A DNA stretch of 64,000 bases, taken from positions 154,552 to 218,551 of the forward strand of contig NZ_SWAR01000005.1 of assembly GCF_006386545.1 (NCBI RefSeq). Direction: 5' to 3'. Source of the stretch: Methylibium rhizosphaerae (GTDB lineage Bacteria; Pseudomonadota; Gammaproteobacteria; Burkholderiales; Burkholderiaceae_C). Numbering within the stretch: position 1 is the first letter of the stretch; every line of letters begins with the position of its first letter. Positions 27,799 through 42,904 of this stretch are shown here, in pieces. The notes under the pieces were generated by a model. It worked only from the letters and a program-made list of their open reading frames with translations. It searched no databases and had not been told where the DNA came from. Made by a program: the position numbers and the translations under genes.

Positions 27799-27840
27799 TC
27801 CTCAGTCCTCAGTCCTCAGTCCTCAGTCCTCGGTCCTCAG
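27799..27840. repeat. Tandem 7-bp repeat TCCTCAG, six copies
   Basis: Six head-to-tail copies of TCCTCAG, the fifth carrying one change (TCCTCGG). The stop codon of the C39 ABC transporter falls in the last copy, so copy number changes would not alter the protein. No clear role; a product of slippage or of a hairpin-free spacer before the terminator. Confidence 0.9.
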
Positions 27841-29990
27841 TTGGCTCCTGATCCAGTCAATGAAGGCACGGTGCGCAAGTCCTGCGCCACCTTGCCCTGC
27901 TGCAGCACGATCACCCGGCCGGCCGACGCGATGGTTTCGGGGCGGTGGGCAACGATCACCCGGGTGAGCTTGAGTTGTTTCACGGCCTGGTTGACCAGGC
28001 GCTCGCGATCGACGTCCAGCGCGCTGGTCGCCTCGTCGAGGAAGAGAATCTGCGGCCGCTTGTACAGGGCACGCGCCAGCAGGATGCGCTGCTTCTGTCC
28101 GCCGGAGATGCTGGCGCCCATGTCGCCGATCAGCGTGTGGTAGCGCATCGGCATGGCTTCGATCTCGTCGTGCACGGCGGCCAGCTTGGCGCATTCCTGC
28201 ACCCAGTCGAGGTCCGGCCGCGGGTCGAAGAAGGCGATGTTGTCGATGATCGAGCCGGCGAACAGCTGGTCGTCCTGCATCACCGTGCCAATGAGGCGAC
28301 GCCACGCCGGCAGGCCGAGCTGCCGCAGCGTCATGCCGTTGACCAGGATCTCGCCCTCGTCGGGCGCATGGATGCCGAGCATCAGCTTGAGCAGCGTCGT
28401 CTTGCCGCAACCCGACGGACCGGAGATCGCCACCGACTCGCCCGGCTCGATGGTGAGGCTGCAACCGTCGAGCACGCGTGCCTCGGTGTCCGAGTAGCGG
28501 AATCCCACGCCGCGCAGCTCCAGCCGCACCGGCGACTGCCCCTCGCCCTGCCCGGCCGCCAGCAGGGCGCTCTGCTCCGCCTCCGGCTCGCTGAGCACGA
28601 TGTCGGCCAGCCGCTCGCCCTGCAGCTTCAGCATCTTGAGCTCGACCAGCTTGTCGATCAGGCCGGCGAAACGCGTGCTGAACTGCTCCTTGTAGGCCAG
28701 GAACGCGAACAGCATGCCGACCGAGAAGTTGCGCTCCATCACCAGCAGCGCACCGACCCAGATGATGGCCACCCGCTCCAGGCCGAAGATCAGCTTGTGG
28801 CTGACACCGAAACCGATGTTGAGCTTTTTCGTCGCGATGTCGGCGTTCATCGCGTCGACCACCAGGTTCAGGAACCGCGCCTGGCGGTCTTCCTGGCGGT
28901 TGAACAGCTTGATGGCCTGCACGCCGCGCAGCGACTCGAGGAAGTGGCTCGCCGTCTTGGCGTCGTGGACGATGGACTCTTCGGTGGCGTCGCGCAGCGG
29001 GCGGAAGAACGCCCAGCGCAGCAGCGCATAGCCGCCCACGCAGCCCAGCGCGATGAGCGTGAGCTTGACGCTGTAGATCCACATCATCACGAGCGTCACC
29101 ACCACCAGCAGCCCGTCGAGCACCGCCTCCAGGAAGCTGGTGGTGAGCGTCTGCTGGATCTGCCGGACCGCGCCGAAGCGCGACATCACGTCGCCGGTGT
29201 GACGCTTTTCGAACCAGGCCACCGGCAGACGCATCAGGTGGGCAAACACGTTGCCCAGCCATTGCAGGTTCAGCGTGCTCGACAGGTACAGCACCGCCCA
29301 GGAGCGAATGGCGCCGGTGGCCACCTGCAGCAGCACCAGCAGGCCGAAGCCCAGGCCCAGGGTCACCAGCAGGTCGCGGTCGGCGCTCACCAGCGCGCCG
29401 TCCACCACCCACTGCAGGAAGAACGGCGACAGCAGCACGAACACCTCGAGCACCGCCGCCAGCACGAAGATCTGCGCGAGGGATCGCTTCAGGCCGGTCA
29501 CCCGCCCCAGCAGCTGGGGCAAGGTGACCGCCTGTCGCTCGTTGCGCGGCTTGAACTCGGCCGTGGGCAGCAACTCCAGCGCCACTCCCGTGAAGTGCAG
29601 CGATACCTCTGAAATGGGCAACGTCCGCACGCCACGCGCTGGGTCGTGTATCACGGCCTGTCCGCGTCTGATCTCCCTGAGCACAACGAAATGGTTCAAG
29701 TCCCAGTGCAGCACGCAAGGCAGCTGCAGCTGGTTCAGCTGCGACAGCTCGGCGCGCAAGGCACGCGGGTTCATCTGCAGCTGGCCGGCCATGTGCACCA
29801 GGTCGGCCAGCGTGGCGCCCTTGAGCGACAGCGAGAAGCGCTGGCGCAGCGTGGGCAGGTCGGTCTTCAGCCCGTGGTAGCTGGCCACCATGGCCAGGCA
29901 GGCCAGGCCGCACTCGGCGGCCTCGGTCTGCAGCAGCATCGGCAGCGTCTGCGTGCCGAGGCCGAGTCGGAGCTGGCGCAGCATGTCCAT
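27837..29990 (-). CDS. C39-peptidase ABC transporter for double-glycine peptides (module 1)
   Basis: 717-residue peptidase-containing ATP-binding transporter of the CvaB/ComA/LagD type: it removes double-glycine leaders and exports the product across the inner membrane with a HlyD adaptor and TolC. C39 domain at 1-145 with catalytic Cys27 in QTEAAECGLA, His100 in WDLNHFVVL and Asp116 in IHDPARG; a six-helix membrane domain; nucleotide-binding domain with SGPSGCGKTTLLK and ISGGQKQRILLARAL. Its ATG overlaps the hlyD stop by one base. Its paralogue at 40781-42904 shares all features. The catalytic residues are intact, so it should be an active maturation protease. Confidence 0.93.
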   Translation of the reverse strand: MDMLRQLRLGLGTQTLPMLLQTEAAECGLACLAMVASYHGLKTDLPTLRQRFSLSLKGATLADLVHMAGQLQMNPRALRAELSQLNQLQLPCVLHWDLNHFVVLREIRRGQAVIHDPARGVRTLPISEVSLHFTGVALELLPTAEFKPRNERQAVTLPQLLGRVTGLKRSLAQIFVLAAVLEVFVLLSPFFLQWVVDGALVSADRDLLVTLGLGFGLLVLLQVATGAIRSWAVLYLSSTLNLQWLGNVFAHLMRLPVAWFEKRHTGDVMSRFGAVRQIQQTLTTSFLEAVLDGLLVVVTLVMMWIYSVKLTLIALGCVGGYALLRWAFFRPLRDATEESIVHDAKTASHFLESLRGVQAIKLFNRQEDRQARFLNLVVDAMNADIATKKLNIGFGVSHKLIFGLERVAIIWVGALLVMERNFSVGMLFAFLAYKEQFSTRFAGLIDKLVELKMLKLQGERLADIVLSEPEAEQSALLAAGQGEGQSPVRLELRGVGFRYSDTEARVLDGCSLTIEPGESVAISGPSGCGKTTLLKLMLGIHAPDEGEILVNGMTLRQLGLPAWRRLIGTVMQDDQLFAGSIIDNIAFFDPRPDLDWVQECAKLAAVHDEIEAMPMRYHTLIGDMGASISGGQKQRILLARALYKRPQILFLDEATSALDVDRERLVNQAVKQLKLTRVIVAHRPETIASAGRVIVLQQGKVAQDLRTVPSLTGSGAN

Positions 29991-31240
29991 CACACCTTGC
30001 CCGCCACGCCGATCAACGGCTCGAAGATCCACTCGATCAAGCGCCGGCGATCCAGCATCACGTCGCCTTCGAGCTGCATGCCGGCAGCCAGCGCCTGCTC
30101 GCGGCCATAGGCGCGCACCGCCTGCTGGTCGAGGGCCACGGTGATGCGGTACATCGGCTCGCTGGCGCTCCCCGCGAGCGGCAACCCGACCAGCTCGGAT
30201 GCCTGGAGCGGCGTCTTCGATACCTGGAGCACCCGGCCCGGCTGCTGACCGAACTTCTGGTATGGAAAGGCCTGGTAGCGCAGCAGCACCGTCTGGTCGG
30301 CCTGCACGAACCCGACGGCGCTCGAGGGCGCGAACAGATGCGCCCGCAGCGGTGCGTCGGCCGGCACCACGCTGGCCAGGGTGGTCGAAGGCGACACGCT
30401 CTGGCCCGGCTCGGCCAGCACGGCCGTCACCACACAGTCCTGCTCGGCGCGCACCACCAAGCTGCTGCGCGCTTCGTTCTCGACCGCCTTTTGCGCAAGT
30501 TCGGCCAGGTCCCGCTCGATCTCGCCCTGCTCCGTCTGCATACGCAACACGAGCTGGCGACGTTCGGCCTCCATCTCCTCGATGTCGCGCTGGTATGAGC
30601 CGCGCTGGCGCTCCAGCTTCTGAAGCTCGGCCTTCAAGCCCAGCACTTCGGCCGTCTTGGCCTGCACCTGCGCTTGCGACACGAAGTTGCCCGCCTGCAA
30701 CGATTTCCACTGGGCTTCGTTCTGCTCGGCCAGCGCCAGCCGGCCACGTTGCAGCTCGGCCTCGCTTTCGAGCTGCCGCTGCTCGTTGCGCAGCTGCTCG
30801 ATGCGCCGCCCGAGGCTGGCCTGCTCTTCGACAACGAACTGGCTGCGCTGGCGCGCCGCACCCAGCAGGCTCGCTTCCCGCGCGGCCAGCGTCCGCTGCA
30901 CCGCCGCCTGCGTGCCGCCCGCCAGGGTGTGCTGGTCGAGCGACAACTCGAACAGCGCCTCGCCCTTGCGCACCAGCTGGCCCTCGGTCACCAGGCGGCG
31001 CACCACGGTGCCGCCGATCGCCGGCCGCAGGCCGATCACACCGCCTTCGGGCACGAGGTAGCCATTGACCCGCGCCTTCTGCGTGTATTGCCCGACCGAG
31101 AGGAAGGCGACCACCGCCACGGCACAGGCCAGCATGAAGACGGTGAGCACCGTCAGCGACAACGGCCGGATCAGCTGGATCCCGCCCAGCCAGGCTTGCT
31201 GCTGGTGTTCGAGGGCTTCGGGGCGGAACAGGCTGGCCAT
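29990..31240 (-). CDS. HlyD-family periplasmic adaptor (module 1)
   Basis: 416-residue membrane fusion protein: one N-terminal transmembrane helix (SLTVLTVFMLACAVAVVAFLSVG), a lipoyl half (PAIGGTVVRRLVTEGQLVRKGEALFEL), a long coiled coil (about 110-245) and a C-terminal beta-barrel. The coiled-coil length and order match CvaA/HlyD partners of C39 ABC exporters, bridging to TolC. It is translationally coupled to the transporter downstream and lies 27 bases after a small membrane protein gene. A second adaptor is encoded at 35887. Confidence 0.92.
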   Translation of the reverse strand: MASLFRPEALEHQQQAWLGGIQLIRPLSLTVLTVFMLACAVAVVAFLSVGQYTQKARVNGYLVPEGGVIGLRPAIGGTVVRRLVTEGQLVRKGEALFELSLDQHTLAGGTQAAVQRTLAAREASLLGAARQRSQFVVEEQASLGRRIEQLRNEQRQLESEAELQRGRLALAEQNEAQWKSLQAGNFVSQAQVQAKTAEVLGLKAELQKLERQRGSYQRDIEEMEAERRQLVLRMQTEQGEIERDLAELAQKAVENEARSSLVVRAEQDCVVTAVLAEPGQSVSPSTTLASVVPADAPLRAHLFAPSSAVGFVQADQTVLLRYQAFPYQKFGQQPGRVLQVSKTPLQASELVGLPLAGSASEPMYRITVALDQQAVRAYGREQALAAGMQLEGDVMLDRRRLIEWIFEPLIGVAGKV

Positions 31241-31267: not shown

Positions 31268-31666
31268 TCAGCGCTGCGCCCTGTGCGGCAGCACCAGGGG
31301 CAGGATGAAGAAGAGAAGCAGCAATGCCGACCCCAGGGTGAGCAGGGGCTGCTCCGGCAGGGAAATGGCATCGACGGCGGACAGGGCGGCCAACGCGGGG
31401 TAGACGGCCAGCATGCATTGCATGACCACATGCATGCGCACTCCAGAGCGGCGATACCGGCGCACCCCGACCAGCAGGGCCAGCGTGAGAGACATCACGA
31501 CTGCGGCACGCCAGGCGGCCGCGGACGCATCGACTGCCCCTCCGGTCAGCCAGATCAGCCCGACATACACCGCCGTCAAGATCAGGCCGAACCAGAGCGC
31601 GCTCCAGAACATGGCCTGGTCCGATGGCGAAGTCGCCTCGCGATTCAGCGCGAAGTAGTCCGCCAT
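31268..31666 (-). CDS. Four-helix membrane protein of the peptide export operon
   Basis: 132-residue hydrophobic protein with about four transmembrane segments (near 19-41, 50-68, 76-97 and 103-125) and basic loops (GVRRYRRSGVRMH). I do not recognise the family. Its place between the double-glycine peptide and hlyD makes an immunity or accessory export role plausible, by analogy with other bacteriocin operons; that is inference. I chose ATG 31666, preceded by TGAGGTC, over an upstream ATG at 31726 that lacks a ribosome site. Confidence 0.7.
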   Translation of the reverse strand: MADYFALNREATSPSDQAMFWSALWFGLILTAVYVGLIWLTGGAVDASAAAWRAAVVMSLTLALLVGVRRYRRSGVRMHVVMQCMLAVYPALAALSAVDAISLPEQPLLTLGSALLLLFFILPLVLPHRAQR

Positions 31667-31786: not shown

Positions 31787-31945
31787 TTACCAGGTTTTGC
31801 TGGGGGCGGAGGTGTTGCCGCCACCAACGAATCGAAGCAACTCGGCATCCAGCTGAACGGGGGCCTGCTGCTCGGCGGTCTTGCGATCGACCTCCTTGAT
31901 GGCTTCGGCTTCCACAACGACTTTGTTTTCCTGAGCCTGCTGCAT
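31787..31945 (-). CDS. Short double-glycine precursor peptide, possible pheromone or bacteriocin
   Basis: 52-residue peptide: acidic helical leader, then DAELLRFVGG and a ten-residue tail GNTSAPSKTW. Numbered from GG as -2/-1, Glu -8, Leu -7 and Phe -4 fit the consensus cut by C39 transporters, so a GNTSAPSKTW-like product is predicted. The leader (about 42 residues) is longer than those of the peptides at 38-40 kb. The start ATG 31945 has GGAGG five bases upstream; a GTG at 31996 in the same frame is less convincing. First gene of the 4TM-HlyD-ABC operon, 79 bases after a lux-box-like site. A ten-residue product is closer in size to a signal than to a pore-former. Confidence 0.72.
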   Translation of the reverse strand: MQQAQENKVVVEAEAIKEVDRKTAEQQAPVQLDAELLRFVGGGNTSAPSKTW

Positions 31946-32023
31946 GCTGTCCTCCAGACGCTTTGCGATGCGCACGACATCTCGTGCATGGCTCACATTG
32001 CAGCAGCCACCGCTACGCGGCGT

Positions 32024-32043
32024 AACTGTCAGCTCTTACAGGT
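32024..32043. promoter_or_regulatory. lux-box-like operator before the peptide operon
   Basis: AACTGTCAGCTCTTACAGGT, whose complement reads ACCTGTAAGAGCTGACAGTT. It has the CT-N12-AG core and outer ACCTGT/ACAGTT half-sites of las/rhl/lux boxes bound by LuxR-type dimers. It lies in the 141-base gap between the luxR-type gene at 32087 and the peptide start at 31945, well placed for activation of the peptide-export operon. Confidence 0.75.
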
Positions 32044-32086: not shown

Positions 32087-32800
32087 TCAGCGGATTAGGC
32101 CCAGGCGCAGGGCCTTGATGACGGCTTGGTGCTTGCTCGTGCAGCCAAGCTTGTGCATGGCATTGTTCACATGCAGTACGGCGGTGCGCTCGCTGATACC
32201 CAAAATGGCACCAACTTCCCACGCCGTCTTGCCATCCATGGTCCAACGCAACGCTTCAAGCTCGCGGGCAGTAAGCTGCGGAGCGTCCGACCCCTGTTCA
32301 GCGGGCACCAACAACCGCATTGCGGCGTCTTGAGCGTGCACCGCAAATAGCTGCAAATCGGCGACGATTCGGGTGAGTTCTGTGGCGTGGTTGGGCAGCG
32401 CCTGATCTCGATCCACACCGATCATGAAGTGCTTGCCATCTGGCAAATGCAGCGCCATCCCGACGCCGGTACGGTACCCAAATGGCGCCTGCTTCTCCCA
32501 CTTCTCGATCAGCCCGCTATCGAGATAGGTGCTCTGATTCCAAATGATGGGCGTGCTATGGCGCTTGCAGTGCTGCAGCACCGGATCTCTGTGGCTGTAT
32601 CCCTCGTCCTCAAAGGTCTGGCGATAGCCGTCCGGCGTGTTGTCGATACAGTAAAACTCCGTACCACCAAGGGGCTTATCTACGGCCACGAAAGCACTCA
32701 TGAGATCAAAGCCCAACCACTTCGTGAAGCGCAGAACTTCGCCACGCAACTCGTCGAGGTTGCGCGACTCCAGCACTGACGTAAATCCACCATGCAGCAT
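32087..32800 (-). CDS. LuxR-family transcriptional regulator, autoinducer-binding type (copy 1)
   Basis: 237-residue regulator with an N-terminal autoinducer-binding domain (about 15-160) and a C-terminal GerE helix-turn-helix (LTARELEALRWTMDGKTAWEVGAILGISERTAVLHVNNAMHKL). In the ligand pocket the conserved Asp-Pro (HRDPV), Trp (IIWNQ) and Gly (FGYRTGVG) are kept, but the canonical Trp and Tyr of the NYPxxWxxxY stretch are Tyr and Phe (NTPDGYRQTF). No luxI is in the window. It is the copy nearest the lux-box site, separated from the other four by 187 bases. Lower GC than the core genes. Confidence 0.9.
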   Translation of the reverse strand: MLHGGFTSVLESRNLDELRGEVLRFTKWLGFDLMSAFVAVDKPLGGTEFYCIDNTPDGYRQTFEDEGYSHRDPVLQHCKRHSTPIIWNQSTYLDSGLIEKWEKQAPFGYRTGVGMALHLPDGKHFMIGVDRDQALPNHATELTRIVADLQLFAVHAQDAAMRLLVPAEQGSDAPQLTARELEALRWTMDGKTAWEVGAILGISERTAVLHVNNAMHKLGCTSKHQAVIKALRLGLIR

Positions 32801-32987: not shown

Positions 32988-33710
32988 TCAGCTCAGCAGG
33001 CCCAACCGCAGCGCCTTCGCGACAGCCTGAACCTTGTTGACGCATTCGAGCTTATGGGCAGCGTGGCCGAGGTGCCGCACGACCGTTTGCTCGCTGATCG
33101 CCAGAATCCGACCGATCTCCCAGGCCGTCTTACCTTCCATCGCCCATTGGAGGACTTCGCGCTCGCGCCAGGAGAGCGCCACACCCTGCGCCGTAGCAAA
33201 GCCCTGCCTAGAAACTAGCAGTCGTGTAGCCACGCCTTCAGCGCAGCTAGCAAACAACAACAACTCGGCCGCTTGGCGCCAACCAGGCTCTGGGGCGCGA
33301 CCGTGCGGCCTGTCCCTGTCAACGCCCACTAGAAGGTGCCGACCACCAGGAAGGTGAAGTGCCACCGCGACACCAGCCTTGTAGCCATGCTGAGCTTGCT
33401 CCTCCCACAACTCGCCGCGCCCAGCTCGCACATACGTCGCCTGATCCCAGATGATTGGCGACGAACTCAACTTGCAGTGCTGTGACACCGGATCTACACG
33501 AAACCGCGCTTCGTTCTCAAACGCCGACCGATAGGCATCAGGCGTGTTGTCTACGCAGTAAAAGTCTGCACCCTGCCCTCGATCGATCACAACCGTCGCC
33601 GACACGAAATCGAATCCAAGTCGCGCCGCAAAGCGGATCGTCACATCGCGCAACCCGTCGATGCCGTCGACGGACGCAAGGGCTTCGAGACATTCGGTCA
33701 AGCGCCTCAT
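32988..33710 (-). CDS. LuxR-family transcriptional regulator, autoinducer-binding type (copy 2)
   Basis: 240-residue paralogue with the same two domains. Pocket: NTPDAYRSAF (Trp to Tyr, Tyr to Phe), Asp-Pro in VDPVSQHCK, Trp in IIWDQATY, and HGYKAGVAVALHLPGGRH. The helix-turn-helix WREREVLQWAMEGKTAWEIGRILAISEQTVVRHLGHAAHKLECVNKVQAVAKAL is close to copies 3 and 4. The start ATG 33710 is ten bases after the stop of copy 3, with AGGA in between, so it is the last gene of the four-gene luxR run. Confidence 0.9.
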   Translation of the reverse strand: MRRLTECLEALASVDGIDGLRDVTIRFAARLGFDFVSATVVIDRGQGADFYCVDNTPDAYRSAFENEARFRVDPVSQHCKLSSSPIIWDQATYVRAGRGELWEEQAQHGYKAGVAVALHLPGGRHLLVGVDRDRPHGRAPEPGWRQAAELLLFASCAEGVATRLLVSRQGFATAQGVALSWREREVLQWAMEGKTAWEIGRILAISEQTVVRHLGHAAHKLECVNKVQAVAKALRLGLLS

Positions 33711-33720
33711 GTCCTAATCC

Positions 33721-34434
33721 TCAATTCAGGAATCCCAGCCGCAGCGCCTTCGCCACGGCCTGCACCTTGTTCACGCAGCCCAGCTTCTGCGCCGCGCTGA
33801 CCGCGTGGCGAGTGACGGTCTGCTCACTGATGCAAAGAATCCGGCCTACCTCCCAGGCCGTCTTGCCGGCCATGGTCCACTGCAGTACTTCCAGCTCGCG
33901 CCGTGACAGCTGGATCGATGAGTCGGCATGCTCCTGCGGCACGAGCAGCCGCAGCGCTGCTACATGCGCATAGGCCGCAAACAGACATAGCTCGGCAGCG
34001 ACGCGGCGCCGCTCTTCGGCGCTGCTGGGCAATGACTGATCGCGGTCAACCGCAAGCATGAAGTGCTTGCCATGAGGCAGATGCAAGGCCAATCCGATTC
34101 CCGTCCGATAACCGAAACGGGCCTGCTCTTCCCACTTGTCAGCGACACCGTGCTCTAGGTAGGTCTCCTGCTTCCAGAGAATCGGCGTGCCGCTTCTCTT
34201 GCAGTGTTGCGTCACTGGGTCTCGCTGCCAGTTGCCTCTGTCTTCAAAAGCGCTTCGGTAGGCGTCGGGCGCGTTGTCAACATAGAAGGAGTCCGTATGG
34301 CCTCCGGGCACGTCGACCACCACGGCTGCCGACATCAAATCGAAGCCCACCCACTTCGTGAACTCCAGCACGCGCTCGCGAAACTCCGCGACATCCGTCG
34401 CACGCAGTACCGAGACAAGGCGATCCTCCAGCAT
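33721..34434 (-). CDS. LuxR-family transcriptional regulator, autoinducer-binding type (copy 3)
   Basis: 237-residue paralogue, closest in its sensor half to copy 1 (EFTKWVGFDLMSA, KHFML). Pocket NAPDAYRSAF again lacks the canonical Trp and Tyr; RDPVTQHCK, PILWKQ and FGYRTGIG are kept. The recognition helix differs (QTVTRHAVSAAQKL instead of QTVVRHLGHAAQKL), so its DNA target may differ. The start ATG 34434 lies 14 bases after the stop of copy 4; a longer in-frame extension upstream is just antisense-free overlap with copy 4 and is not credible. Confidence 0.9.
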   Translation of the reverse strand: MLEDRLVSVLRATDVAEFRERVLEFTKWVGFDLMSAAVVVDVPGGHTDSFYVDNAPDAYRSAFEDRGNWQRDPVTQHCKRSGTPILWKQETYLEHGVADKWEEQARFGYRTGIGLALHLPHGKHFMLAVDRDQSLPSSAEERRRVAAELCLFAAYAHVAALRLLVPQEHADSSIQLSRRELEVLQWTMAGKTAWEVGRILCISEQTVTRHAVSAAQKLGCVNKVQAVAKALRLGFLN

Positions 34435-34448: not shown

Positions 34449-35174
34449 TCACGCGATCAACCCCAGCTGCAACGCCCTGGCCACAGCCTGCACCTTGTTC
34501 ACGCACCCAAGCTTCTGCGCCGCATGGCCGAGGTGCCGCACGACGGTCTGCTCGCTGATCCCGAGAATCGCGCCCACCTCCCACGCCGTCTTTCCTGCCA
34601 TGGTCCAGCGCAGGACCTCCAATTCGCGAGGGGACAACCGAGCCGGTGATCCCACAACCTCGCGCGCGCCGAAAAGTTGAAGCGCGGACTGCTGCGCATA
34701 CGCCGTGAAGAGACACAAGTCCGCGGCCATGCGCTGCTGCTCCATGAGACTGGCCGGAAGCGGCTGATCGCGATCGACTCCGACGACGAAGTGCCGCCCT
34801 TGCGGAAGGTGTTGCGCCACACAAATGCCGGCGCAGTAGCCATGCGCTGCCTGCTCTTCCCATGTCTGCAGCAAGCCGCGCTTCGCGTACGTCCCCCGGC
34901 CCCAGATCGCGGGCGTGCCATGGTGCCTGCAATGCTGCATAACGGGGTCGAAGCGCGCCGCCTCCCTGTCGTCAGCCATCTCTCGATATGCGTCGGGAGC
35001 GTTGTCGACAGCGAGGAAGTCCGGCTCACTCATGGGTCGATCGATGACCACGATGGCCGCGACGAACTCGAACCCCAGCCACCGCGTGAAACGCAGGAGC
35101 TCCTCGCGAAACCCCTCGACGCTGCTCACCCCCAACATCACGGTGAACCGATCACTCGACATCGCCTCAGGCAT
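34449..35174 (-). CDS. LuxR-family transcriptional regulator, autoinducer-binding type (copy 4)
   Basis: 241-residue paralogue. The pocket is the most diverged: NAPDAYREMADD loses both aromatic positions, FDPVMQHCR keeps Asp-Pro, PAIWGRG keeps Trp, HGYCAGICVAQHLP keeps Gly. The helix-turn-helix SPRELEVLRWTMAGKTAWEVGAILGISEQTVVRHLGHAAQKLGC is standard. ATG 35174 overlaps the stop of copy 5 (TGATG); an ATG at 35162 is the alternative. Part of the tightly packed run copy 5-4-3-2. Confidence 0.9.
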   Translation of the reverse strand: MPEAMSSDRFTVMLGVSSVEGFREELLRFTRWLGFEFVAAIVVIDRPMSEPDFLAVDNAPDAYREMADDREAARFDPVMQHCRHHGTPAIWGRGTYAKRGLLQTWEEQAAHGYCAGICVAQHLPQGRHFVVGVDRDQPLPASLMEQQRMAADLCLFTAYAQQSALQLFGAREVVGSPARLSPRELEVLRWTMAGKTAWEVGAILGISEQTVVRHLGHAAQKLGCVNKVQAVARALQLGLIA

Positions 35175-35886: not shown

Positions 35887-36016
35887 GTGTACCTGTTCAG
35901 ACGAAAAGTCATTCAAGCGCAGCGAGCCCAGCACCTCGGCACCATTCGCCTCGGCGGACCGCCCAGCTTCAGTGTCGTCACCGGCGTGGCCCTCGCGCTC
36001 GCTCTCGCGCTGGTGA
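35834..36016 (+). CDS. Possible cysteine-rich small protein overlapping hlyD-2
   Basis: ATG 35834 has GAGGGAG six bases upstream and encodes 60 residues opening with a cysteine-rich segment (MTCNRCNPKRHRNGACSPCT). It then overlaps the hlyD gene in another frame. It may be a short translated leader that couples to the weak GTG start of hlyD at 35887, or chance. No family is recognised. Confidence 0.22.
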   Translation: MTCNRCNPKRHRNGACSPCTCSDEKSFKRSEPSTSAPFASADRPASVSSPAWPSRSLSRW

Positions 36017-37215
36017 GCTTTGCGATGTGGGGTCACGTCACTCGCAAAGCCCGCCTGCCCGGCATGCTGGTACCCACGCTGGGCAGCCTGCAGCTGCCGG
36101 CACCGCAAGCCGGCATCGTGCTCGAAACCAGCGTGCGCGAAGGCGACCTCGTGCGCGCCGGCCATCCGCTCGTGGTGCTGAGCGTTGATCGCACCACCAC
36201 CCAAGGCTCCACTGCAGCCTTGGTGGCCGGCAGCCTCGCCCAGCGCCGCGGCGCGCTGCTCGCCGAGCGCGCCTTGCGCGAGCTGCACAACAGCCAACGG
36301 CGCGAAGCCCTGCTCGATCGCATCCGCCACGCAGAGGCCGAGCAGCGCCGGGTCCGGGGCGAGGCCGAACTGGCCCATCGCCGCGTGCACCTGGCCGGCA
36401 AGACGCTCGACCGCTACCGCCAGCTCGCCGCCGAAGGCTTCGTCGCCGACGTGCAGGCCCAGCAGAAGCAGGAAGAACTGCTCGAACTGCAGGCGCGCAC
36501 CCAAACCACCGAGCGCAACGCCGCCACCGCTGCCGCGCAACTGCAAGCGCTGCATGCCGAACTCGAAACGAACGCGACACAGCTGCGCACCGAACTGGCC
36601 CAGCTCGACCGCACGCTGGCCTCGCTGGAACAAGAGGGCGCCGAAAACGAAGGCCGCCGACGCGTCGTCATCACGGCGCCCCACGACGGCATGGTCACCG
36701 CCCGGACCTTCAGCGTCGGTCAGGGCGTGCAAGCCGGGCAGACGCTACTGACCCTCATCCCGCAAACCCTGCAAGGTGCGGTCGCGGGTCAACCGGCCGA
36801 GTTGCGCGCACAGCTCTACGCGCCCAGCCGCACCGTGGGCTTCATTGAGCCAGGGCAATCGGTGTGGCTGCGATACGCCGCTTATCCGTACCAGAAGTTC
36901 GGCATGGCGCCAGGCGAAATAGAAGCGGTCAGCCGTACTCCCATCAACCCACAAGACCTCCCAGCCGGCCAGGCGCAGGCCCTACTGGCCGCCGCGCAAG
37001 TCAACGAACCGCTCTACCGCATCGACGTCCGCATCCAGCACCAGCACATCGTTGCGTACGGCGAGCGGCAGTGGCTCAAGCCCGGCATGGCGCTCGAGGC
37101 CGACGTGATCCAGGACCGCCGCGCCGTTTGGGAATGGGTGATGGAACCGGTGCTGGCGGTTTCTGCGAAGGCGCGCATGGCCCCTGGTGTCGGCGCAGCC
37201 GGGAGAGCTCTTTGA
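35887..37215 (+). CDS. HlyD-family periplasmic adaptor (module 2)
   Basis: 442-residue membrane fusion protein, paralogous in layout to the one at 29990-31240: N-terminal helix (VVTGVALALALALVSFAMWG), lipoyl half PAPQAGIVLETSVREGDLVRAGHPLVVL, long Gln/Glu/Ala-rich coiled coil (about 120-265) and beta-barrel domain with VGFIEPGQSVWLRYAAYPYQKFG. Partner of the C39 ABC transporter at 40781. GTG start at 35887 follows a modest GGAG. Its last codons overlap the TTG start of the next gene (TTGA). Confidence 0.92.
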   Translation: MYLFRRKVIQAQRAQHLGTIRLGGPPSFSVVTGVALALALALVSFAMWGHVTRKARLPGMLVPTLGSLQLPAPQAGIVLETSVREGDLVRAGHPLVVLSVDRTTTQGSTAALVAGSLAQRRGALLAERALRELHNSQRREALLDRIRHAEAEQRRVRGEAELAHRRVHLAGKTLDRYRQLAAEGFVADVQAQQKQEELLELQARTQTTERNAATAAAQLQALHAELETNATQLRTELAQLDRTLASLEQEGAENEGRRRVVITAPHDGMVTARTFSVGQGVQAGQTLLTLIPQTLQGAVAGQPAELRAQLYAPSRTVGFIEPGQSVWLRYAAYPYQKFGMAPGEIEAVSRTPINPQDLPAGQAQALLAAAQVNEPLYRIDVRIQHQHIVAYGERQWLKPGMALEADVIQDRRAVWEWVMEPVLAVSAKARMAPGVGAAGRAL

Positions 37216-38111
37216 ACCGCCGATCCGCCCTCATTGCTGGCGCCGCGGTCACCCTGCTGACCACAACCGCCGCCCTCATGCGATCACATCATTTCAGCAC
37301 CCAGCCGCTTGGCTTCCAGTACGTCGCCCGAAAAGGGGATGTTGAAGTCACTCTGGTTCCAACCATCCATGCCGCCCCAAAGCCGCTGCAGCTGCCAACT
37401 GCAGTGCGAGATCTACTGGCTCGGGCCGACGCCTTAGCCGTCGAGCTGGACGTGACAGACCTGTCACTCCAACAAGCCGCTCTGATGTGCACCGAGCGGG
37501 CTGCTAGCCAACTTCAGCGCCCACAGCTGTCGGAGCGGCAAGCACAGAAGTTGCGCCAGGCCCTACGCGACGCAAAGTTGGACGATCGCCTGCTCGAAGG
37601 CCAATCGCCCTACTTGCTCGCGCACTTGGCGGCGCAAAGGCAAATGCCTGAGTGGTCGGTTCGCAACGGCTTGGACCGGCTGCTTATCGAACACATGCGC
37701 AGCCTGGGGCGCCCGGTTGAAGCGCTGGAAACCACCTGCTCGCCCACCGACGCACTGGCTAGCGTCGCTCCCCGCCACCTCACCCCTCAACTCCTTGACG
37801 AGACCATCAGGGACGCAAAGTCGCCAAGCGCTCTTCAGCGAGCAAATCTTCTGCTTGAGGCCTGGGAAAGAGGAGACGCCGAACTCGTTCAACGCACATT
37901 CGCCAAGATGAAGACCGACAGCCCTCTTCAGGGAGCGCTCGCGTCAGCCGTACAGGCAATGCGCGACCGGACCATGGCGCAGCGCCTGGTGAGCATCGCC
38001 GCAGCTCACCGTAAGGTGGTGGCAGCGGTCGGCATGCAGCACATCTCATCGCCGCCCGGTATTCCGGGTGAGCTCATCCAACTCGGCTGGGATATCCAAC
38101 CTATGCCTTAG
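37212..38111 (+). CDS. TraB/PrgY/GumN family protein (TIKI-type putative metalloprotease)
   Basis: 299-residue protein with an N-terminal signal or anchor (ALIAGAAVTLLTTTAALM). The TraB/PrgY/GumN signature residues are present: TIH at about 51-53, Glu in LAVELDV near 79, and GMQH at about 274-277 before PGIPGELIQLGWDIQP. In enterococci TraB/PrgY lowers self-produced sex pheromone; eukaryotic TIKI relatives are metalloproteases. In this operon it could process, degrade or protect against the exported peptides; that is inference. TTG start overlaps the hlyD stop. GC is lower than in core genes. Confidence 0.75.
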   Translation: MNRRSALIAGAAVTLLTTTAALMRSHHFSTQPLGFQYVARKGDVEVTLVPTIHAAPKPLQLPTAVRDLLARADALAVELDVTDLSLQQAALMCTERAASQLQRPQLSERQAQKLRQALRDAKLDDRLLEGQSPYLLAHLAAQRQMPEWSVRNGLDRLLIEHMRSLGRPVEALETTCSPTDALASVAPRHLTPQLLDETIRDAKSPSALQRANLLLEAWERGDAELVQRTFAKMKTDSPLQGALASAVQAMRDRTMAQRLVSIAAAHRKVVAAVGMQHISSPPGIPGELIQLGWDIQPMP

Positions 38112-38211: not shown

Positions 38212-38275
38212 GAGGTCACCGCATATGGCCTCTCAACAAAGAGAGAGAGAACGCATGAAGTTACTGAACCCTGTC
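38212..38275 (+). repeat. Duplicated 5' segment, copy A
   Basis: The block from GAGGTCACCGCAT through the GA-rich ribosome site to ATGAAGTTACTGAACCC is repeated with few changes at 39083-39143. The two copies precede and include the leaders of the paralogous proline-rich precursors at 38255 and 39123, showing duplication of gene plus upstream region. Confidence 0.85.
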
Positions 38276-38407
38276 GAAGGGCAAGCCGTCAGCGGCGGAG
38301 TTCCCTTGCCTCCGGTACCCCTCCAGCCCGCGCCACCACGTGCTGGTAGCGACGGGTGGCAACCGGTGCAACCCGTCATCGGGCCACCCACACTCGGCCC
38401 GACCTAA
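38255..38407 (+). CDS. Class II microcin-like precursor, proline-rich (P1)
   Basis: 50-residue precursor: leader MKLLNPVEGQAVSGG (15 residues) then a Pro-rich core beginning VPLPPVPLQPAPPRAG and ending PVIGPPTLGPT. The leader has the length and pattern of the microcin V leader MRTLTLNELDSVSGG: Leu at 4, Glu -8, Val -4, Gly-Gly. The 35-residue core has about 13 prolines, one Trp and no Cys, unlike pore-forming class II microcins. GA-rich ribosome site. Homologue at 39123. It is first in the peptide array after the TraB-like gene. Confidence 0.78.
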   Translation: MKLLNPVEGQAVSGGVPLPPVPLQPAPPRAGSDGWQPVQPVIGPPTLGPT

Positions 38408-38452: not shown

Positions 38453-38743
38453 ATGAAAACACTCAGGTTCATAGATCTGGGATCGGTAGTCGCCGGCTCG
38501 AGCGAAGGGGGTGACCCCGGCACGTCTGGCTCGCAATCAGGCGCAAGCTCAAGCAACAACTCCGACGGCGGCACGATCAACGGCGTCGGTCAGCTTGTCG
38601 GCGCAGCGGTTGGGGCCACCCTGTGCATGGGCACCCCAGCAGTGCCCTATTGCGCCGCCGCTGGCGCCTTTGTTGGCGCAAACATCCCAACGGAATCCTC
38701 GTCCTCGCCTCGAGTGATGTTGTCAGACATCACGGCACCTTGA
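38453..38743 (+). CDS. Colicin V-like class II microcin precursor
   Basis: 96-residue precursor. Leader MKTLRFIDLGSVVAG parallels MRTLTLNELDSVSGG position by position (Leu 4, acidic -8, Leu -7, Ser -5, Val -4, Ala-Gly). The core is first Ser/Gly/Asn-rich (SQSGASSSNNSDGG) and then a Gly/Ala hydrophobic stretch with GxxxG-like spacing (NGVGQLVGAAVGATLCMG) and two cysteines twelve residues apart that could pair. This is the architecture of membrane-active two-part bacteriocins and colicin V. GAGAGGA ribosome site. A small two-helix protein follows at 38841 and could be its immunity protein. Confidence 0.78.
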   Translation: MKTLRFIDLGSVVAGSSEGGDPGTSGSQSGASSSNNSDGGTINGVGQLVGAAVGATLCMGTPAVPYCAAAGAFVGANIPTESSSSPRVMLSDITAP

Positions 38744-38754
38744 CCAAGCTCCAC

Positions 38755-38796
38755 GGCCAGCGCGGAGCCCAGATCTCGGACACGGCCGGGGCGTAG
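38755..38796 (+). pseudogene. Remnant of a microcin-like precursor C-terminus
   Basis: Reads GQRGAQISDTAGA and TAG, a degraded copy of the ending GQSGGQISDTPAA shared by the precursors at 39347 and 39645. The bases after the stop (TAGTCATTCGAACCGGAA against TAGTCACTCGAGCCGAAA at 39491) also match, so the duplicated unit extended beyond the gene. No start or leader remains. Confidence 0.7.
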
Positions 38797-38840
38797 TCAT
38801 TCGAACCGGAACCGCGAGCCGTTCTAGGGACAAAGCAACG

Positions 38841-39044
38841 ATGGAAAGAGTCGCGCTGTATTTCTTTGCGGTCCTCGGAATGGCGTATCTGTTGATCACT
38901 TTGCAGGCAGGTTTCTATTCCGGGTCGTCCCTTCCCTTCACCGATCTGCTGAAAGCGGTCCTGTGGAGTTGCCCGCCCGCCATGGTGGCTGCCGCATCCG
39001 CGTATTCGAGATCAAAGCGGTCTCGCGTTGGTCGATCGGCATGA
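38841..39044 (+). CDS. Small two-helix membrane protein, candidate immunity protein
   Basis: 67-residue protein with two predicted membrane helices (LYFFAVLGMAYLLITLQAGF and LLKAVLWSCPPAMVAAASA) and a basic tail (SRSKRSRVGRSA). No family recognised. Size, topology and position directly after the colicin V-like gene match immunity proteins of class II microcins such as Cvi. AGGGA lies about ten bases before ATG. Confidence 0.65.
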   Translation: MERVALYFFAVLGMAYLLITLQAGFYSGSSLPFTDLLKAVLWSCPPAMVAAASAYSRSKRSRVGRSA

Positions 39045-39082: not shown

Positions 39083-39143
39083 GAGGTCACCGCATTGACT
39101 TCACAACAAGGAGAGAGAACCCATGAAGTTACTGAACCCCGAC
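39083..39143 (+). repeat. Duplicated 5' segment, copy B
   Basis: Second copy of the block at 38212-38275, covering the region upstream of, the ribosome site of and the first codons of the precursor at 39123. Confidence 0.85.
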
Positions 39144-39284
39144 GAAGGCTGCGCCGTTGGCGCAGGGGCAGCGCCCCTGCCGCTGCAGCCAGGTGCTCAG
39201 GGCGCAACGCCACCGCGCGCCGGCACTGACGGATGGCTGCCCGTGGAACCGGTCATCGGCCCGCCCGTGCTTGGGCCGGCTTGA
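39123..39284 (+). CDS. Class II microcin-like precursor, proline-rich (P2)
   Basis: 53-residue precursor, paralogue of P1. Leader MKLLNPDEGCAVGAG (Glu -8, Val -4, Ala-Gly at the cut), then AAPLPLQPGAQGATPPRAG and an ending (VEPVIGPPVLGPA) almost the same as P1. Identity is highest at both ends, while the centre carries insertions. The leader has a cysteine at -6 as do the leaders at 39347 and 39645. Below usual gene-caller length. GGAGAGA ribosome site. Confidence 0.76.
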   Translation: MKLLNPDEGCAVGAGAAPLPLQPGAQGATPPRAGTDGWLPVEPVIGPPVLGPA

Positions 39285-39346: not shown

Positions 39347-39493
39347 ATGCAAGTGCTGAACACGACCGAATGCGCAAGCGTCGAAGGCGCAGGTATCCCC
39401 CGAATCGTGACCGAGCTGGCCCGGGCACTTTGCGCGTCTGACGCCAATGCCGGCCAAAGCGGAGGCCAGATCTCGGACACGCCTGCGGCGTAG
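39347..39493 (+). CDS. Class II microcin-like precursor, QISDTPAA type (Q1)
   Basis: 48-residue precursor. Leader MQVLNTTECASVEGA with Glu -8, Val -4 and Gly-Ala at the cut; core GIPRIVTELARALCASDANAG and the tail QSGGQISDTPAA. The core starts with a short amphipathic helix and has one cysteine. Paralogue at 39645 shares leader pattern and the last 17 residues almost exactly. AGGAAGGA ribosome site. A terminator follows at 39542. Confidence 0.76.
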   Translation: MQVLNTTECASVEGAGIPRIVTELARALCASDANAGQSGGQISDTPAA

Positions 39494-39644: not shown

Positions 39645-39818
39645 ATGCAAGTCCTGAACTTGAACCAGTGTGAAAGCGTAGAAGGCGGCAGCGGCGTTGT
39701 GCGCTGGGCCATCGCGGGCATCATCGAACTGACATGCGAGGCCACGAAGGCCCTGATCGCCAGCGACAGCAACGCCGGCCAGAGCGGCGGTCAGATCTCG
39801 GACACGCCCGCGGCGTAA
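39645..39818 (+). CDS. Class II microcin-like precursor, QISDTPAA type (Q2)
   Basis: 57-residue precursor. Leader MQVLNLNQCESVEGG (Gln at -8, Val -4, Gly-Gly) and a 42-residue core with a hydrophobic helix (VVRWAIAGIIELTCEATKAL) followed by the tail SDSNAGQSGGQISDTPAA. The helix is longer and more hydrophobic than in Q1, which suits membrane action; a single cysteine might form an intermolecular disulfide. GAAGGAAAG ribosome site. A terminator and the CPBP protease gene follow. Confidence 0.78.
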   Translation: MQVLNLNQCESVEGGSGVVRWAIAGIIELTCEATKALIASDSNAGQSGGQISDTPAA

Positions 39819-39901: not shown

Positions 39902-40732
39902 ATGGCCGCTATCGACCTGACTACGGTGACCTTCTCCTCGATCTTGCGCGAACTGGGTTTGCGCATCCTGGCGCCCGTGCTGCTCATCGTGGCGCCGGCC
40001 TTTTCGCTGGTGGTCATCTTCGGCTACGGTTTCCCGTTTCACTGGGCGCTTGTGGCCCTCACGATCGGAGCGGTGCCGATCGGTGCGTCCCTCACACACA
40101 TCTACCTTAAAAACCGCTACCCGCATATCTCGGCCTTCGCTCGGCTGCGGCCGCTGCCTTGGCGCACCAAGGCCTTACTGCTCGTTCCGATCGCCATGCA
40201 CCTGGCAGGGGTCTCGTTCTACGTCGTCTCAAACGGCGGGCCGTCGCTCCACCCGGAAAATCACACCGGCCTGCTCATCAGCACATTCCTCGTGATGGTG
40301 ACGCTTCCCGTTGCAGAGGAATGGATCTTTCGCCTATGCGCCCTGCAGGGCATGGTGTCCCTTGGCGTGCGCGCACCGCTTGCGGTCGGGCTGAGCGCGC
40401 TGTTGTTCGGCGGAGCACACGTCTCGGCTGGGCCCACTGGAATCGCGCTCATCGCCACCATCGGCGCCTGCTGGGCCGTCATTACGTTGCGCACCCGCTC
40501 AATCTGGCCGGCTATCGCACTCCACGCTGCGTGGAACGCCTGCGAATTTCTGTACGGAACGCTCACCGGCCATCGTATCGACTGGGACGACCGCCACGTC
40601 AACGCCAACGATGCCCTCCTACCCATTGCGGTTGCTGCCGCCACGGTGGTGGTCACCGTTCTCATTGCTCAACAACGGCGCCCCACCGAGCCGACTTTGC
40701 AGGACACCGTGCCGTCACCGCCGGTCGACTGA
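39902..40732 (+). CDS. CPBP family intramembrane glutamic protease
   Basis: 276-residue polytopic membrane protein with about seven to eight helices. All CPBP/Abi motifs are present: EEWIFR at about 139-144, FGGAH at 169-173 and HAAWN at 208-212. Family members in bacteriocin loci (for example plantaricin PlnI/PlnP, and sakacin immunity proteins) give immunity or process peptides; Rce1 relatives cleave prenylated proteins. Its place between the precursors and the transporter argues for immunity or maturation. Start ATG 39902 opens before the first helix. Confidence 0.88.
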   Translation: MAAIDLTTVTFSSILRELGLRILAPVLLIVAPAFSLVVIFGYGFPFHWALVALTIGAVPIGASLTHIYLKNRYPHISAFARLRPLPWRTKALLLVPIAMHLAGVSFYVVSNGGPSLHPENHTGLLISTFLVMVTLPVAEEWIFRLCALQGMVSLGVRAPLAVGLSALLFGGAHVSAGPTGIALIATIGACWAVITLRTRSIWPAIALHAAWNACEFLYGTLTGHRIDWDDRHVNANDALLPIAVAAATVVVTVLIAQQRRPTEPTLQDTVPSPPVD

Positions 40733-40780: not shown

Positions 40781-42904
40781 ATGCACGCCCAGCTTCAGTC
40801 CGAAGCCGCCGAATGCTCTCTCGCGTGCTTGGCCATGGTGGCCAGCGCACACGGCTTGCGGCTCGACCTGGCCGAGCTGCGGCGGCGGTTTCCGGTGTCG
40901 CTGAAGGGCGCCAATCTGCAGCAACTGATGGTCCATGCAGCGGCGCTGGGCTTCTCTTCGCGACCTCTGCGCCTCGAAATGTCCGAGCTGCGCCAGCTGC
41001 AGCTGCCCTGCGTGCTGCACTGGGACCTGAACCACTTCGTGGTGCTCAAGCGCGTCAACCGCCGAGGCGCTGTCGTGCTCGACCCGGCAGTCGGCGAGCG
41101 GCGTCTGCCGCTTGCGCAGGTGTCGCGCCATTTCACCGGCGTGGCCCTCGAGCTCTTTCCCAATGCCACCTTCCAGCCGGCCGATCAGCGACAGCGGCTG
41201 AAGCTTTCGCAGCTCACCGGCCGCGTGCGCGGCCTGAACCGGTCGCTGCTGCAGATCCTCGCGGTGGCGCTGGTGCTCGAACTCTTCGCCGTGGTGGCTC
41301 CGCTGTTCAACCAGCTTGTGGTGGACGAGGTCATCACATCGCACGATGCGGACCTGCTCACCGTGCTGGCTCTGGGCTTCGGACTGCTGCTCGTCGCCCA
41401 GACAGGCATCGGCCTCGCCCGCTCCTGGATGGTCATGGTGCTCGGCCAGACACTGTCGCTGCAATGGCTGGGCAACATGTTCGCCCACCTCGTGCGCCTG
41501 CCCCTCGACTATTTCGAGAAGCGCCATCTCGGCGACGTGGTGTCGCGCTTCGGCTCGGTCACCGCCATCCAGAAAACGCTCACCACCAACGTCATCGAAG
41601 CCGTGCTCGACGGTGTCATGGCGCTGGCCGCACTGACCATGATGCTGCTGTATGCACCGCAGCTGGCGGCGGTCACGGTGACGGCGGTGCTGCTGTACAC
41701 CCTGCTGCGCTGGGCTTCGTATCGCCCGCTACGCGAGGCCGCGGCCGAGCGGCTCGTCGTCGCCTCGCGCGAGAACACGCACTTCCTCGAGACCTTGCGT
41801 GCCATCACGCCACTGAAGCTCTTCGGCCGCGAGGAGGCACGCCGCGCGGGCTGGCAGAACCTGATCGTCGACGTGCAGAACCGCGACGTGCGTACGGCCC
41901 GGATGAACATTGGCTTCGCGGCGGCCAGCACCTTCATCTTCGGCACCGAGAACCTGGTGGTGTTCTGGCTGGGCGCGAGGCTGGTGATGCAGGGCCAGAG
42001 CACGCAGGCCGTGGCATTCACCGTCGGCATGATGTTCGCGTTCGCGAGCTACAAGGGCCAGTTCACCAGCCGCGTGAGCGCCCTCGTCAACTACGCAATC
42101 GAACTGAAGATGCTCAGCCTGCATGCCGAGCGCCTGGGCGACATCGCGCTCACGGCCCCCGAGACGGATGAGCTGCCCGAAAGCGACCTGTCCCACCTGC
42201 CCGCCTCGCTGGAGCTGCGCAACGTCAGCTTCCGCTACGGCGAGGGCGAGCCGTGGCTCCTCAAGAATGCGAACTTCAAGGTCGAGGCCGGCCAGAGCGT
42301 GGCACTGACCGGCCCTTCGGGCTGCGGCAAGACCACCTTGCTCAAGCTCATGCTCGGCCTGCTGCCGCCCACCGAAGGCGAGGTGCTGTACGGCGGCGTG
42401 CCGATCCGCCAGCTCGGCATTGCCAACGTGCGGCGGCGCATCGGCACCGTCATGCAGGAAGACGTGCTGCTCACCGGCAGCCTGGCCGACAACATCAGCT
42501 TCTTCGATCCGCGGCCGAGCAGCCAGCGTGCGGAAGTCTGCGCACGGCTGGCTCAGCTGCACGCCGACATCATGAAGATGCCGATGGGCTACCACACCCT
42601 CGTTGGCGACCTGGGCAGCGGGCTCAGCGGCGGGCAGAAGCAGCGGCTGCTGCTGGCACGCGCGTTGTACAAGCAACCCAGCGTGCTCGCGCTCGACGAA
42701 GCGACCAGCCACCTCGACGCGGGCAACGAACGCGCCGTCACGCTCACCCTCGGCGGCATGCGCCTGACCCGGCTCGTCATTGCCCACAGGCCCGAAACCA
42801 TCGCGGGGGCGCAACGAGTGGTGCAGATCCGCGACGGCCAGGTGGCCGAGCTCATGCAAGCCGTGCCTCGACCTGCCCAACCAACAGCGCCGATGCCCGC
42901 CTGA
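40781..42904 (+). CDS. C39-peptidase ABC transporter for double-glycine peptides (module 2)
   Basis: 707-residue paralogue of the transporter at 27837. The C39 domain has Cys12 in QSEAAECSLA (Ser instead of the usual Gly after Cys), His85 in WDLNHFVVL and Asp101 in VLDPAVGE. Then a six-helix membrane domain and an ATPase with TGPSGCGKTTLLK and LSGGQKQRLLLARAL; the D-loop reads LDEATSHLDAG. It should cleave and export the microcin-like precursors with the adaptor at 35887. The N-terminus is 15 residues shorter than in module 1. The gene closes the plus-strand operon. Confidence 0.93.
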   Translation: MHAQLQSEAAECSLACLAMVASAHGLRLDLAELRRRFPVSLKGANLQQLMVHAAALGFSSRPLRLEMSELRQLQLPCVLHWDLNHFVVLKRVNRRGAVVLDPAVGERRLPLAQVSRHFTGVALELFPNATFQPADQRQRLKLSQLTGRVRGLNRSLLQILAVALVLELFAVVAPLFNQLVVDEVITSHDADLLTVLALGFGLLLVAQTGIGLARSWMVMVLGQTLSLQWLGNMFAHLVRLPLDYFEKRHLGDVVSRFGSVTAIQKTLTTNVIEAVLDGVMALAALTMMLLYAPQLAAVTVTAVLLYTLLRWASYRPLREAAAERLVVASRENTHFLETLRAITPLKLFGREEARRAGWQNLIVDVQNRDVRTARMNIGFAAASTFIFGTENLVVFWLGARLVMQGQSTQAVAFTVGMMFAFASYKGQFTSRVSALVNYAIELKMLSLHAERLGDIALTAPETDELPESDLSHLPASLELRNVSFRYGEGEPWLLKNANFKVEAGQSVALTGPSGCGKTTLLKLMLGLLPPTEGEVLYGGVPIRQLGIANVRRRIGTVMQEDVLLTGSLADNISFFDPRPSSQRAEVCARLAQLHADIMKMPMGYHTLVGDLGSGLSGGQKQRLLLARALYKQPSVLALDEATSHLDAGNERAVTLTLGGMRLTRLVIAHRPETIAGAQRVVQIRDGQVAELMQAVPRPAQPTAPMPA

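Follow-up and report, generated by a model that had tools for sequence, protein, structure and literature searches.

The textbook account of Gram-negative quorum sensing has LuxR-type proteins as its receptors of small molecules; for many LuxR solos no ligand has been identified. In the Gram-positive pheromone systems ComRS, Rgg-SHP and PlcR-PapR, the signal is a short, sometimes Trp-containing peptide derived from a precursor, and the cytoplasmic receptor is encoded beside the peptide gene. The locus considered here lies in a 64,000-nucleotide stretch of DNA from Methylibium rhizosphaerae (contig NZ_SWAR01000005.1, positions 154,552 to 218,551; this whole stretch is called the window) and contains LuxR-type genes next to genes for peptide precursors and exporters. 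Its left half is probably a quorum-sensing-type circuit in which a short, usually Trp-ending peptide encoded by pepG replaces an acyl-homoserine lactone (AHL) as the ligand of the LuxR protein lux1. This reading is drawn from the conserved gene order with an RsaM-like gene, the lux box and extended -10 element, the failure to find LuxI, the covariation of the peptide with LuxR centred on positions aligned with the LasR pocket, and the retention of the peptide tail where leader and nearby exporter are missing. The locus resembles the Gram-positive systems in having a short precursor-made peptide and a receptor gene adjoining the peptide gene, but their receptors are of RRNPP type rather than LuxR and their hosts are Gram-positive.

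LuxI/LuxR AHL systems with RsaM share the LuxR autoinducer domain, the lux boxes and the adjoining RsaM-like gene with this locus; they differ in that here no LuxI was found and peptide precursor and exporter genes lie beside luxR. The text consulted of PMC10710839 describes RsaM as an AHL quorum-sensing regulator always adjoining luxI and/or luxR loci and defines a divergent rsaM-luxR solo class (type 6a) in Pelomonas, Kinneretia, Albitalea, Thauera and Xenophilus; in that text, which lists rsaM-luxR solos, the word 'peptide' does not occur. In the consulted parts of two further papers, the plant-responsive LuxR solo PipR/OryR is said to answer peptide-like compounds imported by an ABC transporter (PMC4981722), and a later review, which treats LuxR solos as a wide and varied group, lists the PipR ligand as an ethanolamine derivative (PMC10134790). 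The PipR/OryR case is unlike the present one in that the ligand comes from outside and the flanking genes are peptidases and an importer, not a precursor gene and a C39 exporter; neither of those flanks (proline iminopeptidase, peptide importer) was present among the locus genes scanned with Pfam, to which the scan was limited. Class II microcins of Enterobacterales share the Gly-Gly leader, HlyD-type protein and C39 ABC exporter, but the pepG-type core is only ∼6–10 residues long, covaries with LuxR and gave no match to a microcin model above cut-off. Literature searches for a LuxR protein with a precursor peptide and an exporter turned up nothing like the locus, in agreement with an earlier sequence-only reading of this DNA, according to which it looked undescribed.

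The window was compared with 80 loci of other genomes, the best 80 of 166 obtained by scanning genome contigs with a LuxR protein alignment. The loci are titled Rubrivivax, Methylibium, Piscinibacter, Rhizobacter, Roseateles, Mitsuaria, Ideonella, Aquabacterium and further Burkholderiales, and several of these genera are assigned to the family Sphaerotilaceae. Peptides were counted over the 79 loci with enough sequence, and the 80 sequences in the peptide and LuxR statistics are these 79 loci and the window. In Sphaerotilaceae-type Burkholderiales a conserved cassette was found in which an RsaM-like gene and luxR diverge, and luxR is followed in turn by a lux box, the gene for a short peptide, an HlyD gene and a C39 ABC gene. 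In the window the genes from lux1 onwards lie on the minus strand: lux1 (32087..32800; Autoind_bind 2.8e-20, GerE 7.4e-16), pepG (31787..31945), hlyD1 for a membrane-fusion protein (29990..31240; HlyD_3 5e-13) and abc1 for a C39 peptidase and ABC exporter (27837..29990; Peptidase_C39, ABC_membrane and ABC_tran). The lux1 orthologue is followed by orthologues of hlyD1 and then abc1 in 64 of the 80 loci; of the remaining 16, three contigs end too soon (L048, L096 and L105) and 13 have no exporter in the stretch examined. Searches with LuxR gave matches in 60 of 200 genomes of the family (E ≤ 1e-20), against 7 of 399 at order level (E ≤ 1e-30) and 4 of 398 at phylum level (E ≤ 1e-28), the last two samples both including the window's own genome and one family member. 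Close relatives therefore seem to be concentrated in the window's own family.

In 79 of the 80 loci the RsaM-like gene, of about 125 amino acids, is found no more than 400 bp from lux1 and in divergent orientation, and a CTG-N10-CAG box, mostly of the CTGTAAACCYTGTCAG type, is found at most 300 bp upstream of lux1 in 72. In the window the gene (43035..43418, plus strand) and lux1 are ∼10 kb apart. Given its position and that of the second lux box CTGTAAACCTTGTCAG (42943..42958, minus strand), which belongs to the type that relatives have between lux1 and the RsaM-like gene, an array of LuxR genes and a second export module sit between the two. The likeness to DUF4902/RsaM (PF16245) is weak: of 11 orthologues, 9 reach E ≤ 1, the lowest value being 1.1e-5, and the window's protein scores 14.4 bits against a Pfam cut-off of 25. 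The best match of the RsaM-like profile in the Protein Data Bank, with a weak score (E = 0.034), is 4O2H (BCAM1869), which we take to be RsaM. In both loci scanned for it (L046 and L113) a gene for an ABC-2 type permease (PF12679) lies upstream of the RsaM-like gene, and in many loci there recurs, ∼2.5 kb upstream of lux1, a tblastn match resembling an ABC ATPase.

The absence of luxI from the window, as stated in the sequence-only reading, extends to the whole 6.17-Mb genome, where no match to PF00765 was found. The same search was also negative in 14 control genomes; of 200 family members, 22 had a match exceeding the cut-off. Among the 44 family genomes with a strong LuxR match (E ≤ 1e-60, the window's own included), LuxI was over the cut-off in 6 (G013, G028, G102, G126, G153 and G179).

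In 78 of the 80 loci a box of the form CTGTAAGA[GC][CT]TGACAG, or a variant of it, follows lux1 at a distance of no more than 220 bp; among 1600 random windows of equal length, 126 contain a CTG-N10-CAG of any kind. The window's box CTGTAAGAGCTGACAG (32026..32041, minus strand), which the earlier account had not described, matches exactly and is the single exact occurrence in its genome. As in 78 of the 80 loci, the window's lux box stands upstream of the peptide gene, the would-be signal gene. Downstream of the box is a TGnTnnAAT sequence, a putative extended -10 promoter element (TGCTGCAAT in the window, 31997..32005, minus strand), whose named bases are 96–100% conserved over 78 aligned loci. 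This would place the centre of the box ∼43 bp upstream of the transcription start, a spacing usual for LuxR-type activation. A genome-wide regulon defined by the box was considered but not borne out: apart from the one exact site the matches had two mismatches, and there were 9 strand-wise matches against 3 with a reversed control pattern.

A short open reading frame (ORF) follows the box in all 79 loci with enough sequence. The typical precursor has a leader of ∼35–50 amino acids ending like 'LD..xLxxVxGG' and then a core such as LPKGGW, APKGTW, GPNGGW or SPVKGW. The window's pepG has the leader ...LDAELLRFVGG followed by GNTSAPSKTW, and the ATG at 31945 behind a GGAGG ribosome site is a better start than the upstream GTG. 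The core has the form x-P-x-x-x-W in 73 of the 80 sequences, the other seven being LPRVGG, LPRVS or alike, and a few residues lie beyond the W in some precursors. Of 79 loci, 68 have an ORF ending exactly in P-x2/3-W at 60–460 nt downstream of lux1; among 1757 random windows taken from these loci the number is 37. At least 35 of the 79 precursors carry two to seven copies of the core, identical within the precursor in 30, a count taken from 38 precursors that mostly looked repeated, the other 41 being left out. The sequence-only reading had staked itself on conservation of the precursors next to the exporters in relatives, and for pepG this conservation was observed.

Seven loci (L052, L053, L068, L087, L098, L116 and L118) keep the tail without a Gly-Gly leader and with no exporter in the stretch examined. 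Their peptides range from 18 to 62 amino acids; that of L098 has 20 and ends in ELPRAGW, while that of L118 has seven copies of GPRGTW. On the LuxR tree this difference amounts to about two changes. In three genomes with such leaderless pairs (G011, G034 and G192) no match to abc1 at E ≤ 1e-100 was found genome-wide among the candidates scored. Among sister LuxR proteins with 38–54% identity (14 loci, L143–L156), seven (L144, L146, L149, L151, L154, L155 and L156) have similar short peptides, including even shorter leaderless ones, for instance one ending in LPRVGW. A P-x2-4-W tail was not seen after L143, L145, L147, L148, L150, L152 and L153, nor after the distant LuxR genes L159, L160, L161, L162, L163, L166 and L167. 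The leaderless peptides and their sister-group counterparts favour the main rival to a secreted signal, namely that the peptide acts inside the cell as a LuxR ligand or antagonist, its export by the C39 ABC protein serving to remove it or being a secondary use. This is nevertheless unlikely, as 64 of 80 loci retain exporter genes after the peptide gene, mostly together with a leader of Gly-Gly type, an arrangement more in keeping with a product that is secreted.

Six of the seven leaderless loci (all except L118) have no CTG-N10-CAG between the RsaM-like gene and lux1, compared with only 2 of the 73 others, so the absence of that upstream box goes together with the absence of leader and exporter. 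In five of the seven (L052, L068, L087, L116 and L118) an apparent Crp/Fnr-type gene, judged by eye, lies past the peptide on the other strand, ∼0.6–1.6 kb after lux1.

The proteins lux1 to lux4 contain both the autoinducer-binding and the GerE domain of LuxR proteins. An AlphaFold2 model of lux1 (pLDDT 84.8) matches the structures of QscR, RhlR, SdiA and LasR, and on this model lux1 is a LuxR protein. In TraR the AHL is contacted by W57, Y61, D70, P71, W85 and G113. The equivalents of D70, P71, W85 and G113 are kept in all 80 sequences, that of W57 is Trp in only 4 and that of Y61 is Tyr in 22, the window's lux1 having Tyr and Phe at these two positions. The lux1 family as a whole thus does not carry the AHL-contact set of LuxI/LuxR systems. 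The position of LasR A105 is Gln in 76 of 80 sequences and that of LasR L125 is His in all 80.

Over 65 complete sets (64 loci and the window), distances between peptide cores correlated with distances between autoinducer domains (r = 0.351) and less with those between HTH domains (0.096), HlyD proteins (0.224) or ABC proteins (0.160). The partial correlation between peptide and autoinducer domain was 0.325 given ABC and 0.277 given HlyD, each reached in 0 of 1000 permutations, while the partial correlations given the autoinducer domain were slightly negative (ABC -0.08, HlyD -0.02, HTH -0.07). In column scans of LuxR, HlyD and ABC with shuffled tips, a pocket-equivalent column came first at all five variable core positions. 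These results could conceivably be phylogenetic in origin or a by-product of the co-transfer of adjacent genes. With simulation on two trees, one of HlyD and ABC and one of LuxR without the pocket columns, a column equivalent to the LasR pocket still led among 899 columns for core positions 1, 3, 4 and 6. The pocket columns as a set exceeded the other autoinducer-domain columns and the ABC and HlyD columns (Mann-Whitney 3.8e-5 or lower), the median maximum z in the simulations being 3.7–4.4 for pocket columns against 1.7–2.0 elsewhere.

The pairing of core position 5 with LuxR residue 69 was followed further. In the training data (n = 80) 26 sequences combine Thr at position 5 with Gly69 and 43 have neither; Gly69 goes with a side-chain-bearing peptide residue in 34 of 36 sequences, and 35 of the 44 without Gly69 have Gly in the peptide. 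The plain logic would be one of size: a side chain on the peptide would be matched by space in the pocket, and its absence often by a bulky residue. On the tree 17 changes are reconstructed for the position-5 Thr and 19 for the residue-69 Gly. A held-out set was made from 41 further LuxR sequences, of which 27 were left once near-identical ones had been removed and 24 had a readable peptide; the unread three were L033, at a contig end, and L042 and L180, without motif peptide or box. Penultimate Thr coincided with Gly69 in 24 of 24 (both present in 6, both absent in 18; p = 7.4e-6). Among 237 columns none but residue 69 gave 22 or more agreements, and copying from the nearest training sequence gave 18 of 24. 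With only those loci less than 85% identical to any training LuxR, and one near-duplicate removed, the agreement was 19 of 19 (p = 2.6e-4).

Several observations weigh against the circuit or its details. Some of them favour a phylogenetic origin of the covariation: at core position 5 the exporter columns lead in the tree-based scans, residue 69 being seventh or third, some exporter and non-pocket columns score high too, exporter columns picked as the best of hundreds singly reach low p-values, and hand-picked pairs inflate significance. Because of this, weight is placed on the set-level and held-out tests. The position-5 rule is not two-way in the training data, where 10 sequences have Gly69 without Thr and one, the window with Ser69, has Thr without Gly69. 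Of the other rules, those for residues 126 and 114 held in part in the held-out loci, a weak generalisation: residue 126 gave p = 0.0099, and residue 114 gave p = 0.0023 in a small-residue form defined at the held-out step and p = 0.13 in its original form. Those for residues 59 and 100 were not significant there. The rule linking W with F49 gave 23 of 24, one locus having W without F49, but as all 24 have W this agreement is no test; about two changes lie behind the pairing of W loss with F49 loss. The list of pocket residues was itself carried from LasR onto the LuxR columns by sequence alignment. Given the simulations on two trees, the repeated changes at both positions and the held-out result, a purely phylogenetic or co-transfer explanation is nonetheless highly improbable.

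Other points bear on the biology of the circuit. In size a hexapeptide exceeds an AHL, no importer linked to the peptide was present among the locus genes scanned with Pfam, the leaderless peptides have no visible export route and fit an intracellular ligand equally well, the window's pepG has a single copy of the core, and in L042 and L180 the sequence after luxR is present yet has neither motif peptide nor box. With these points included, the pairing of a pepG-type peptide with a lux1-type LuxR is the best-supported reading.

C39 ABC exporters cleave double-glycine leaders. In the circuit as we envisage it, the C39 domain would cut pepG at Gly-Gly and the ABC/HlyD pair would secrete the core, which would re-enter cells and bind lux1 in the pocket that holds the AHL in LasR. 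Bound lux1 would then activate the peptide operon, giving positive feedback, and the RsaM-like protein may damp the circuit. We infer secretion of pepG from its leader and exporter, and we infer also that it signals between cells.

The pepG family could instead be an ordinary class II microcin-like bacteriocin under LuxR control, with LuxR sensing another molecule. The Gly-Gly leader with a dedicated HlyD/C39 exporter is the classic layout for bacteriocin export and the peptides of the right-hand module look bacteriocin-like. Against this, the peptide covaries with the ligand domain of LuxR beyond what exporter relatedness accounts for, the tail persists in loci lacking both leader and nearby exporter, the cores have only about six residues, and the window's two candidate immunity proteins gave no tblastn match in the 80 loci. 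The bacteriocin explanation is therefore very unlikely for pepG, which is better read as a signal than as a microcin because of its synteny with LuxR, the lux box and the covariation.

The window's copy of the cassette is enlarged. To the left the locus is flanked by mnmG/rsmG (GIDA and GidB domains) and a DUF2061 gene, and to the right by the RsaM-like gene, which with its own box (42943–43418) lies past the right end of the earlier account. The left module contains the single precursor pepG, a 132-amino-acid membrane-type protein (imm132; 31268..31666, minus strand; no Pfam match) that may confer immunity, hlyD1 and abc1. Of the run of five LuxR genes reported in the sequence-only reading, the run itself stands between the exporter pairs, but only four are full-length with autoinducer and GerE domains. 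Beyond lux1 these are, on the minus strand, lux2 (32988..33710; 49% identity to lux1), lux3 (33721..34434; 59%) and lux4 (34449..35174; 50%), paralogues which differ from lux1 at the variable pocket positions. The fifth, lux5 (35174..35866, minus strand), has GerE only (residues 168–223), and its start is uncertain.

The right-hand module is on the plus strand and contains hlyD2 for a second membrane-fusion protein (35887..37215; HlyD_3 1.4e-14), a TraB/PrgY/GumN family protein with a TTG start (37212..38111; PF01963, 1.8e-27), five precursors, a 67-amino-acid membrane-type protein that is a candidate for immunity (38841..39044; no family match above cut-off), a CPBP/Rce1-like membrane protease (39902..40732; PF02517, 3.1e-18) and the C39 ABC exporter abc2 (40781..42904; Peptidase_C39 1.1e-31, ABC_membrane and ABC_tran). 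The domain matches bear out the two outward-facing pairs of HlyD and C39 ABC genes, the TraB/PrgY-family protein and the CPBP protease of the original description. PrgY of enterococci is a pheromone shut-down protein, and a role of its relative here in control of signal or cargo is conceivable by analogy.

The five precursors are pepA (38255..38407; proline-rich, a paralogue of pepD, no family match), pepB (38453..38743; glycine/alanine-rich and bacteriocin-like, with a sub-threshold Bacteriocin_IIc match at E = 1.2), pepD (39123..39284; proline-rich), pepE (39347..39493; short, with the tail NAGQSGGQISDTPAA) and pepF (39645..39818; short, with the leader MQVLNLNQCESVEGG and the same tail as pepE). 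With pepG there are six short precursor-like ORFs, as had been claimed, but a strict Gly-Gly before the predicted cleavage site is found only in pepA, pepF and pepG; in pepD and pepE the residues are Gly-Ala-Gly, and pepB has an Ala-Gly-Ser / Glu-Gly-Gly region. The class II microcin layout of Gly-Gly leader, HlyD-type protein and C39 ABC exporter is thus present with the variants of pepD and pepE. None of the six matched a microcin or bacteriocin model of Pfam or NCBIfam above cut-off, and a single microcin family covering all six was rejected, pepG being a separate conserved family. Of the class II microcin-like module first proposed, the peptide export genes and the LuxR linkage are retained, but not a single class of peptide. 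Homologues of the right-hand peptides are sparse: for pepF there are 5 apart from the two in the window, each with the tail NAGQSGGQISDTPAA, and pepA, pepB, pepD, pepE and pepF gave no tblastn match in the 80 loci. These peptides are best called bacteriocin-like cargo. At 38745–38797, after pepB and in another frame, lies an apparent remnant of the GQSGGQISDTPAA tail common to pepE and pepF, which suggests an older peptide gene.

The LuxR control first proposed for the locus fits the lux boxes at pepG and at the RsaM-like gene; at the right-hand module no box was found near hlyD2 or pepA–pepF with up to 3 mismatches. Control of this module through a pepG-type box is accordingly not supported, a divergent box recognised by a paralogue being possible. 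Besides the two named boxes, the stretch from 27.0 to 43.6 kb has CTG-N10-CAG nowhere but within imm132, pepD and abc2.

A comparable arrangement is found in G095, of another genus in the same family, with an RsaM-like gene, lux1, pepG, LuxR paralogues, hlyD2- and abc2-like genes and then hlyD1 and abc1. In G196, of the same genus as G095, the paralogues are present and no abc2- or hlyD2-like match lies between pepG and hlyD1. As the insert is between pepG and hlyD1 in these two and between the RsaM-like gene and lux1 in the window, the insertions seem to have arisen separately at the same locus. A LuxR array of another genus (L125) has different Gly-Gly-type peptides near its second module (7007–7279 and 9104–9322), so the cargo of the locus looks variable. 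The window's genome has a third C39-ABC/HlyD pair (L123, 6347–6547 and 6692–10026), its ABC protein 55–56% identical to abc1, adjoining a Gly-Gly peptide with a long hydrophobic core.

Taking the locus and its relatives together, we lean towards a new class of communication in which LuxR receptors use a ribosomally made, exported, Trp-ending peptide in place of an AHL and its synthase, with species-specific 'dialects' held in matching peptide and pocket residues. In the window the receptor would have been amplified into an array of paralogues with altered pockets and tied to a second export module carrying different, bacteriocin-like peptides. If this is true, the gene-encoded ligand beside its receptor would make one subgroup of LuxR solos directly testable, as the genome gives the sequence of the ligand, which can then be synthesised and exchanged. 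The specificity code linking residue 69 to the penultimate peptide residue would be testable by single substitutions, and the system would form a bridge between Gram-positive peptide signalling and the LuxR family.

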